From positions 1-34,515 of the forward strand of contig JAQVKF010000016.1 in assembly GCA_028694795.1 (NCBI GenBank): 34,515 nucleotides of DNA. The letters run 5' to 3'. This stretch comes from Thermoguttaceae bacterium. Its GTDB lineage: Bacteria > Planctomycetota > Planctomycetia > Pirellulales > Thermoguttaceae. Each line of letters opens with the position of its first letter. Position 1 is the stretch's first letter. Position numbers and translations under genes: made by a program. Positions 31,479-34,515 of the stretch are shown here, piece by piece. A model generated the notes under the pieces. That model ran no database searches. It saw nothing but the letters and a program-made list of their open reading frames with translations, and was not told the DNA's origin.

Positions 31479-31651
31479 TCGGTTCCTTCTGCCATGAGGG
31501 ATTGCGGGCATTCAGGTGGTCGAAATTGCCCATTCCGACAGAAGTCCATTCTACTATGTATCCTGTTCGCGTCGCAAGCGGTCGGGCCGCAAGATATGGC
31601 TGTCATCCTACCTGAGGTTAAAGCAGTCGCTTTCTACGGCGGACCCACGGA

Positions 31652-32812
31652 TCAATCCCCCATCGAAAGCTCTGGAAGTTCCAGTTCATCTTTCGTCGGT
31701 GCCACGGGCGTCTGTGTCGGATTTGCCGAAGCTCGCGAGACCGGAGCGGAAACCGTCGCCCGATCGGACGCCGATAGCGATAACGGTGCCACTGGAGCCG
31801 TAGGAATCAGTGACGGATCGTTCTCGGAAAATTCCACGAATTCAGGAAGTTCGACGCATCCCGGTTCCGCAAACATGGCTAAAACCTCCGATTTCGAAGG
31901 GACTGATTCCGACGATGGAACCGCTTGCGCGGGTACGCAAAGTGTCGCTGAGGTCGGAACGATGGCGGATGACTTCGGATTCTGTGCGACCGATGTCACG
32001 ATACGGTTGGCTGGCGGCTGTACATTCAATTTCGGCACACTGACCGCAACCGGCTCAATGGCATTTCGCTCCTGCATGGTAATGGTGATCGCCTGTGGTT
32101 TGACGACTGGTACCGGATGATCCGTCAGCTGTGGCGGAACCTCTTGCATAGTCGCTCGAGAAGTGGACATTACCGCACGGTCCGATGCGAAGGCAAGCGA
32201 ATCGGAGGAGAACATCTGTCCAGAAGATACCGCCCCATCGGTTGTGAACGCTGGCGTCGCGGGAATCTCCAGAATCTCTGGAACGTCCATCGAATGGAAC
32301 GGGAGGGCGGCTGTGAGCGATACATTTTCATGCTTATTCGCAATCGGCATCGAACGTGGCTGTGCCGACAATGCGCCGGATGACGCGATTTCAGGTACCT
32401 CTGGTATGATTTCTGGTACGCTCTCCGGTATCGTTGCTGATGTGACCTTGGGGCTGCGCTCTGGTATCGTGGGCGCAGCGTTCGGTGTGGAACTCGACGC
32501 GATTTTTGGAGAAAATTCCGGAATAGCCTGCGGTGCGAATGATTCGGCCCGGCCGAATACGACCTCTGTAGGCGCGAATGCGGGCGCCGGGGGGAACGTG
32601 CCCACTGGTGCGACTGGTACAGGAGTCTGCTCGCACAGACGAACCATCGCGATCCAGGTCTGACGATAATCACTCAAAAAAGAGGCCTCTCGACAAATCC
32701 CCGTACCGCATAGCAATCCCACACCGAGAAGTCCCCCCATGCCAAGCCAAAATGGTCTTGAAAGAGGTTCGAATCGTAAGTGTCTTTTGTGTGTATGGGA
32801 TAATTTCATCAT
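31652..32812 (-). CDS. Hypothetical Pro/Ala/Ser/Val-rich low-complexity protein with N-terminal TM
   Basis: MMKLSHTHKRHLRFEPLSRPFWLGMGGLLGVGLLCGTG, then degenerate IPE-xP/P-E-I-type repeats; same strand as the downstream gene. Confidence 0.55.
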   Translation of the reverse strand: MMKLSHTHKRHLRFEPLSRPFWLGMGGLLGVGLLCGTGICREASFLSDYRQTWIAMVRLCEQTPVPVAPVGTFPPAPAFAPTEVVFGRAESFAPQAIPEFSPKIASSSTPNAAPTIPERSPKVTSATIPESVPEIIPEVPEIASSGALSAQPRSMPIANKHENVSLTAALPFHSMDVPEILEIPATPAFTTDGAVSSGQMFSSDSLAFASDRAVMSTSRATMQEVPPQLTDHPVPVVKPQAITITMQERNAIEPVAVSVPKLNVQPPANRIVTSVAQNPKSSAIVPTSATLCVPAQAVPSSESVPSKSEVLAMFAEPGCVELPEFVEFSENDPSLIPTAPVAPLSLSASDRATVSAPVSRASANPTQTPVAPTKDELELPELSMGD

Positions 32813-33392
32813 TTACCTTTCTTTTTCTTACAGAATCTTGTGGACCATAAAAGACGAGACATAAGGAATCGCTCTCATCTTTCTTCCGTCGGTCTTTTTC
32901 GGCAAAACGACGTGTAAAACTTAAACGATTATTCTGGTTATATCGGTTAGATAAAACAGTCCATTCTATTCCATGGAGGTACGATCTGTACCGAGCGAAT
33001 GCGTTGCACGGTGGCTTCGAGAATCGAAAGTGGAAAACAGGGAGAAAAATATTTTGAAAAATGAAGGAGAAAAGTGGCGGGATATTTGGGGACAGGGAAA
33101 CTATGTTCGTGTCAGACAAAAAGATGGTGAGGATCGGAAATAATACAATTGTCATAGATATGTGGTGAATGATCAAAAGCAGCATGTCTGGTATAAAACG
33201 GTGTAAACAAGAGAACATTCCTCCATTTTTGGATGATTATTTTCATCTGAAAGAAAAATTTCGTGGTACGGACAGTGTTCGGAGGTTGCGATCGAACGGA
33301 GATTGCTCCGATGGATGGATTTCCACGGATTTGGAATAAAAATGAGAACCGATTATCATCCAATGAGAATGGACCACACAGGAGAATGAACC

Positions 33393-34515
33393 ATGATGCA
33401 GATTCTTAAGAAAGCCCCGTGGGGCGCGACGGCATTTGCCGCAGTATGTCTTGCCGGAACACTGGCGTTTGCGCAGGGACCGGAAGGCCAAGGACCGGAG
33501 GCTCGTCCTGAGGGACCAGCGCCGCAAGTGGAACCGCAGAAGGATGGGCCGGCGGGCGAGTGGATGCGTGGTCCGCAACTTGGCGGTCCGCAGGGGATGC
33601 CGGGGATGGGGTTGCAATTCGCGGGAGGACGCGGACCTTGGGGTGGAATGAAAGCTCCGGAAGGGGAACAAGGCAAGGGATTTGCCAGAGGAATGGGCGG
33701 TCGTGGACAGCGATTTGCCGCTTCTGCGGCGGGGCTTGAGCTGACGGCGGAGCAGCGTGAGCAGTTGCGTACGGTGCGGGAAGAATTCCAGCCGAAGATG
33801 AAGGAATTGCAGGAGAAATATGCCGCCGAGATGAAGGCTTTAGCTGAAGAGATGAAGGCGAAAACGGAAGGTGTTTTCACGGAAGAGCAAAAAGCCAAAC
33901 TCGAAGAGCTGAAAAAAGATTTTCCGACGCCTGGTATGGGCTCGCAGTTTGGCGGCCCGCAGGGTATGCCTGGTGTTGGACCACAGTTCGGTGGCCCGCA
34001 GGGAATGCCTGGGATGGGTCCACAGTTCGGCGGCCCGCAGGGAATGCCTGGGATGGGACCACAGTTTGGTGGCCCGCAGGGTATGCCAGGGATGGGTCCG
34101 CAGTTCGGTGGCCCACAGGGAATGCCTGGTATGGGTCCGCAGTTCGGTGGCCCACAGGGAATGCCTGGTATGGGTCCGCAGTTCGGTGGCCCACAGGGAA
34201 TGCCGTGTGTGAAAGGTGGAATGTGCCCGATGAACGGACCGAAATTCGGAATGGGTGGTAAAAGTCCAATGGGCTGGGGGAAAAACGCTCGCGGTGCCCA
34301 TGGATTTGCTCCCAAGATGGATGATAAAGGTTGGTGCCCTTGTGGTCCGGAATGCCGCTGTGGCGCAGAGTGCCAGTGTGGCCCGCGTGGCGAGATGAAC
34401 CGTGGCGAAGGACGTGGCCCGCGTGGTGAGATGAACCGTGGTGAAGGACGTGGCCCGCGTGGCGAGATGAACCGTGGCGAAGGACGTGGCCCGCGTGGCG
34501 AGATGAAGCGTGGCG
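33393..34515 (+). CDS. Spy/CpxP-like (LTxxQ) secreted protein with 13-aa tandem repeats, Cys-rich cluster and 12-aa repeats; truncated by window end
   Basis: GGAG upstream of ATG 33393; MMQILKKAPWGATAFAAVCLAGTLAFAQ signal; LELTAEQREQLRTVREEFQPKMKELQEKYAAEMKALAEEMKAKTEGVFTEEQKAKLEELKKD; absent from the ORF track because there is no stop before the window end. Confidence 0.82.
   Translation, partial: MMQILKKAPWGATAFAAVCLAGTLAFAQGPEGQGPEARPEGPAPQVEPQKDGPAGEWMRGPQLGGPQGMPGMGLQFAGGRGPWGGMKAPEGEQGKGFARGMGGRGQRFAASAAGLELTAEQREQLRTVREEFQPKMKELQEKYAAEMKALAEEMKAKTEGVFTEEQKAKLEELKKDFPTPGMGSQFGGPQGMPGVGPQFGGPQGMPGMGPQFGGPQGMPGMGPQFGGPQGMPGMGPQFGGPQGMPGMGPQFGGPQGMPGMGPQFGGPQGMPCVKGGMCPMNGPKFGMGGKSPMGWGKNARGAHGFAPKMDDKGWCPCGPECRCGAECQCGPRGEMNRGEGRGPRGEMNRGEGRGPRGEMNRGEGRGPRGEMKRG
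33930..34202 (+). repeat. In-frame 39-bp tandem repeat, 7 copies (PGMGPQFGGPQGM)
   Basis: Seven contiguous 39-bp units; copies 6 and 7 are identical. Confidence 0.9.
34380..34515 (+). repeat. In-frame 36-bp tandem repeat (GPRGEMNRGEGR), 3.8 copies, running off the window
   Basis: Units at 34380, 34416, 34452 and 34488 (partial); near-identical. Confidence 0.9.

Follow-up and report, generated by a model that had tools for sequence, protein, structure and literature searches.

Members of the LTXXQ family (PF07813), such as Spy and CpxP, carry a signal peptide, two LTxxQ-like motifs and a helical hairpin. Metallothioneins are small and Cys-rich throughout, with CxC clusters; such clusters are classic thiolate metal sites, and the two cysteines of a CxC pair form a mutual disulfide only with difficulty and are typical of metal thiolate clusters. 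SilE is a disordered periplasmic metal sponge whose motifs pair Met with His (PMC5008109), and cysteine-rich YTV proteins occur in planctomycete wall preparations (PMC8567305). Full-text literature searches returned no paper on LTXXQ together with planctomycet and no paper joining metallothionein with Spy and CpxP. Planctomycetes have many exported LTxxQ proteins, the function of which is seemingly undescribed in the literature found.

Here, we examined an LTxxQ protein with a Cys cluster (below, the LTxxQ/Cys protein) encoded in the window, the whole 34,515-nucleotide stretch of DNA that was analysed. The window is the entire contig C115 of a 3.99 Mb genome in 310 contigs. As the genome has 41 matches to SBP_bac_10 (DUF1559), which we take to be characteristic of planctomycetes, versus none in 14 control genomes, it was assigned to a planctomycete. 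With the LTXXQ family, the protein shares a predicted signal peptide, two LTxxQ-like motifs, a helical hairpin and a distant sequence match to Spy, but it has one short hairpin (about 62 residues) within about 280 disordered residues, carries a Cys cluster, and scores far under the Spy-specific NCBIfam cut-off. Similarly to SilE-type sponges it appears exported and disordered and has Met-rich repeats, whereas SilE has the Met/His motifs MxxH and HxxM and the window protein only MxxM, with one mature His. Its CxC clusters resemble those of metallothionein, but only 8 Cys occur in 346+ mature residues. Finally, it is like the YTV wall proteins (PF07639) in its export, repeats, cysteines and phylum, although it lacks the YTV domain and its cysteines are few.

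Layout of the reading frame and its contig edge

The open reading frame (ORF) of the LTxxQ/Cys protein (33393-34514, + strand) has 374 codons and no stop before the contig, and with it the window, ends. Its features are listed below.

33380-33384, + strand: Shine-Dalgarno-like AGGAG, 8 bases 5' of the ATG (sequence)
33393-33473, + strand, residues 1-27: Sec-type signal peptide, predicted cleavage between AFA and Q (sequence; model helix 10-27)
33474-33734, + strand, residues 28-114: Gly/Pro-rich disordered N-terminal linker with a diverged repeat copy, GPQLGGPQGMPGMGLQF (sequence; pLDDT mostly <50; like composition in relatives)
33735-33920, + strand, residues 115-176: LTxxQ helical hairpin (PF07813; model helices; profile match to Spy in PDB)
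33930-34202, + strand, residues 180-270: seven 13-aa repeats, PGMGPQFGGPQGM, five of them exact (Tandem Repeats Finder, sequence)
34203-34334, + strand, residues 271-314: Met/Gly segment with C272 and C278 (PCVKGGMCPMNG...) (sequence)
34335-34379, + strand, residues 315-329: cysteine cluster CPCGPECRCGAECQC, C-x-C-G-x-x hexads with CQC at the end (sequence; random-placement test)
34380-34514, + strand, residues 330-374: 12-aa repeats GPRGEMNRGEGR, interrupted by the contig end and likely resuming on contig C194 (L003:3-92)

The initial annotation had described the protein as exported, in agreement with the predicted Sec-type signal peptide that ends at residue 27. It had also counted seven exact 13-aa repeats; seven copies were indeed recovered, as were the 12-aa repeats, but only five copies are exact, copy 1 having S for P and copy 2 having V for M. 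Tandem Repeats Finder placed the 13-aa array at 33929-34204 (period 39, 7.1 copies, score 384) and the 12-aa array at 34378-34515 (period 36, 3.8 copies, score 255). As the diverged 13-aa copy is N-terminal to the helical domain, repeats occur on both sides of the hairpin. The 39-bp copies differ by 13 distinct base changes, of which 10 were synonymous versus 23-26% expected (P about 1e-4), indicating that the + frame is translated and that the repeat sequence is constrained. At the level of the sequence, the architecture, the export signal and the constraint on the repeats were established. A collagen-like period, as first proposed, was rejected, because the longest GXX run was two triplets in either array and Pfam gave no collagen match.

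The sequence past 34515, to which the initial annotation had pointed, was sought in the rest of the genome. The sole further match to the contig-edge repeat was found in the first 48 bases of C194, and reading these in frame gives GPRGEMNRGEGHGPRDRGPDSDQPEAPEK followed by a stop, so that C194 begins in frame in the 12-aa repeat. Because C115 and C194 both break in the same, otherwise unique 12-aa repeat, the start of C194 is probably the C-terminus of the LTxxQ/Cys protein, and the ORF across this putative join is expected to end in GPDSDQPEAPEK and a stop. The protein length is put at about 400 residues. The GC content of the ORF is 61%, versus 46-56% in neighbouring genes, an excess that falls mostly on the first and second codon positions, as the Gly/Pro content would predict. 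No sign of foreign origin was seen, since third-position GC (56%) is close to that of the neighbours.

The helical hairpin and its planctomycete relatives

A relation to Spy and CpxP had been suggested at the outset from the LTxxQ region, and it was borne out. The two motifs are LTAEQ at 117-121 and FTEEQ at 162-166, the second with F for L. For the protein alone, Pfam LTXXQ (PF07813) gave E=6.4e-5 and 24.0 bits, its cut-off being 24.3; when neighbours in the frame were counted, the score was 28.9 bits, over the cut-off. The hairpins of the closest relatives were also made into a profile, which matched Spy crystal structures in the PDB (E=1e-4). A single-hairpin profile from which two longer rows were left out still matched Spy with E=1e-3 over 34 positions. 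Of the two HMMs named in the initial annotation, PF07813 thus scores at about its cut-off, and Metal_resist (PF13801) reached 14.8 bits, below its Pfam cut-off of 29.2. Single-sequence phmmer gave no match to solved Spy, and the Spy-specific NCBIfam equivalog scored 16 bits against the 174 required. AlphaFold2 without an alignment predicted one hairpin, with helices 119-159 and 164-176 (pLDDT about 90 over 121-150 and 69-80 afterwards), and disorder elsewhere; Foldseek gave no match for the whole-protein model, which is mostly disordered and of low confidence. As judged by these comparisons, the hairpin is homologous to Spy as a distant, shortened relative and not Spy proper.

Of 119 genomes from the same family, 85 had LTXXQ matches at E<=0.05, and in 61 the score was over the cut-off. 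In a set of 102 relatives, each with two motifs and nearly all of the same family, the flanks hold 25-29% Gly+Pro versus 8% in the domain and are often rich in Met or Arg too; Met reaches 8.5% in Cys-free members. No further genome of the same genus was present among the relatives searched. The window protein resembles these planctomycete exported LTxxQ proteins (for example L345, L321, L006 and L009) in its hairpin and low-complexity flanks, and QFRGPGMGPGGFGAGMG of L345 is strikingly similar; ahead of its domain, L345 carries PGPGQFRGPGMGPGGFGAGMG, which is close in sequence to the window repeat. The relatives, however, lack long exact arrays of this type and the Cys cluster, and the arrays that a periodicity scan detected, in four other members, were all short and of the GP/GR type. 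Because the family abounds in exported LTxxQ proteins whose flanks are disordered and G/P/R/M-rich, the linkers of the window protein are, on this comparison, an exaggerated family trait.

The same genome encodes a second LTxxQ-type protein (L453; G000:C160, 1029-2979, minus strand) of at least 650 aa and without cysteine, assigned by a weak genome match (16.2 bits) together with two clear motifs; it gave no Pfam match at E<=0.01. Met/Gly/Pro repeats lie on both sides of its motifs (GRMSGGMDGPMMGGM, GGPGGMPGGMNGPM), and the contig end falls inside repeats.

The cysteine cluster and its occurrence elsewhere

The mature protein has eight cysteines, namely the six of the cluster, spaced CxC-x3-CxC-x3-CxC, plus C272 and C278. 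Upon random placement of the eight, the cluster pattern was obtained in 0 of 200,000 placements, indicating that it did not arise by chance. Conservation of the Cys motif in LTxxQ homologues, set as a test in the initial annotation, was not observed: mature cysteines are absent from 83 of the 102 relatives, and none of the 102 has the window cluster. Only one other relative has more than four mature cysteines (L410, G125:C105), an LTxxQ protein with seven in another arrangement (CGC...CWMC...CVC), possibly reflecting an independent Cys gain.

The strict Cys pattern was matched in 14 of 119 genomes of the family and in 22 of 392 of a phylum sample, and translation of the frames at the Cys-pattern loci revealed no second LTxxQ-Cys fusion among the matches listed. 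Whole-protein searches detected LTxxQ proteins but none with the Cys cluster in 398 genomes of the class, and gave no match in GTDB genome contigs; when viral and genome contigs were scanned for the Cys pattern, most of the matches listed were frame noise from GCGC runs. Therefore, a search for the same architecture elsewhere, as first proposed, located it only in this genome, among the matches listed.

The hexad CPCGPE, however, recurs in sister genera, where it is carried by separate Cys-rich exported proteins (CPCGPECPCGSECACG in G053; arrays in G007, G067 and G030), and in small metallothionein-like ORFs of distant bacteria, for example CPCGPQCRCGAQCACG in a Burkholderiaceae contig. The exported Cys-rich or metallothionein-like proteins of G053, G067, G030 and G007 share the C-x-C-G-x-x hexads in almost the same letters, but they are Cys-rich over most of their length and without LTxxQ, whereas the module here spans 15 residues of about 400. 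Because near-identical hexads occur in these separate proteins, we regard the Cys module, common as it is to exported proteins of the family, as real on the sequence evidence, but as an add-on in an LTxxQ protein; the simplest reading is that it was gained by, or grew in, one such protein. The description of the cluster as metallothionein-like holds in part: the CxC clusters and the hexad of metallothionein-like ORFs agree with it, but the Cys tail alone matched no Pfam family at E<=1 and no metallothionein family. Hairpin, flanks and Cys module are each known or common, and their combination was met once in the genomes searched, among the matches listed.

Several other proteins with Cys-rich runs were recorded. 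A UVR-motif protein, presumably McsA-like (L024 and L025, in G153 and G019), has a CxCGxxCxCG run as an insertion that separates its two Cys regions. In the YTV wall-type proteins L026 and L027 (G024 and G064), a central CxC-motif run lies between YTV repeat blocks. A 136-aa ORF of an Oscillospiraceae MAG (L232), which we assume to resemble the nitrogenase-cofactor NifX/NifB-type fold, ends in a C-terminal GGCSCGDACNCGPECGCGCH, and a 321-aa ORF on a 300 kb viral contig (L119) holds an internal CHCGPNCKCGANCKCPPGCKCG run. Within the genome of the window, the Cys pattern was also matched through Gly-Cys alternating runs at G000:C22:941-1003 (minus strand; L022), which is part of a frame 828 aa or more in length, and at G000:C66:2568-2762 (plus strand).

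Possible functions and genomic neighbourhood

We tentatively propose, with somewhat less than even confidence, that the protein is an exported, largely disordered planctomycete LTxxQ member whose Cys tail would make it a soft-metal sponge of the envelope. Metal binding, the redox state of the protein, its dimerisation and any activity as a chaperone are inferred as follows. The G/P/M-rich linkers have expanded into tandem repeats, and the tail holds a metallothionein-like Cys module; Cu(I), Ag(I) or Zn could then be bound by eight thiolates, if kept reduced, and by 30 Met thioethers. The Spy-like hairpin could form dimers, keep hold of unfolded clients, or both, and the repeats could serve as flexible spacers by which the ligands are spread out and concentrated. 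The homologous hairpin, the soft ligands (Cys, Met), the non-random cluster, the mostly synonymous differences among repeat copies and the hexad common to exported Cys-rich proteins argue for this proposal. In the mature part, 30 of 346 residues are Met (8.7%), with seven MxxM and one His, versus 1.8-4.5% Met in neighbouring genes, and soft-metal binding by the candidate Cys/Met tail is plausible. Nevertheless, thiols outside the cytoplasm may become oxidised to disulfides, and the combination was seen in one genome only, among the matches listed. The Met richness may not concern metal because Met-rich linkers are also found in Cys-free relatives. Further points against the sponge are the near absence of His, in contrast to SilE, the lack of a Pfam metallothionein match for the Cys tail, and a neighbourhood in which no metal-related gene was found.

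The protein might instead be a disulfide-cross-linked component of the envelope or wall, with its cysteines linking it to itself or to other Cys-rich wall proteins, its hairpin anchoring or dimerising it, its Pro/Gly repeats forming an extended spacer, and no metal function. We consider this, the main rival, somewhat unlikely. An exported cluster would normally face an oxidising space, the host genome is planctomycete by its SBP_bac_10 matches, Cys-rich YTV proteins are known from planctomycete walls (PMC8567305), and a YTV protein from the same planctomycete family (L026; PF07639, E=9e-37) has a CACGCDCACGC run. However, the window protein gave no YTV (PF07639) match at E<=10, and cross-linking is no family trait, as most LTxxQ relatives are Cys-free. 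Furthermore, CxC pairs are generally ill-suited to form disulfides with each other.

A general envelope chaperone of the Spy type, with a functional hairpin, repeats that are near-neutral linker expansions and an incidental Cys cluster, is unlikely in our judgement. Such a chaperone would fit the wide occurrence of LTxxQ proteins with G/P/R/M-rich flanks (85 of 119 genomes), the free variation of these flanks, and the Cys-free paralogue with Met/Gly/Pro repeats in the same genome (L453), but the mostly synonymous changes among repeat copies are contrary to free drift, the Cys pattern is far from random for an idle tail, and the hairpin is short, with 16 of 174 bits in the whole-Spy model. Highly improbable is a redox- and metal-responsive envelope chaperone, in which metal filling of the Cys/Met tail would collapse the repeats and switch the hairpin between hold and release; if true, metallothionein chemistry would be fused directly to a periplasmic chaperone. 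Finally, that no true protein exists, the ORF being a repeat or assembly artefact or on the wrong strand, is scarcely credible. Although the ORF stops at a contig break within a repeat and a long antisense frame (33356-34513) is likewise open, the signal peptide, ribosome-binding site and Pfam match are all present, the in-frame 3' end with a stop on C194 fits, and the synonymous pattern of the repeats lies in the + frame. This pattern, together with homology, ruled out the antisense ORF.

The window protein hints that at least some planctomycete exported LTxxQ proteins may take part in metal or thiol chemistry of the envelope, and its chaperone-type hairpin with a putative thiolate cluster offers a testable fusion. 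If the metal role fails, the protein still illustrates the expansion of linkers into repeats.

No metal-related gene was found beside the ORF, and the two nearest upstream genes gave no Pfam match. Downstream, ApbE is located about 290 bases away on C194, beyond a terminator-like hairpin. A conserved ApbE operon was rejected, as this hairpin lies between the two genes and a simple motif check within 1.5 kb upstream of ApbE homologues in about 30 relatives found no LTxxQ homologue. No RNA element was detected by Rfam at E<=1 in 31500-34515. A Pro/Ala/Ser-rich protein of 386 aa without a Pfam or NCBIfam match is encoded at 31652-32812 (- strand), and the 580-base intergenic region that follows (32813-33392; 40% GC, no Rfam match) is long and AT-rich compared with the flanking genes.
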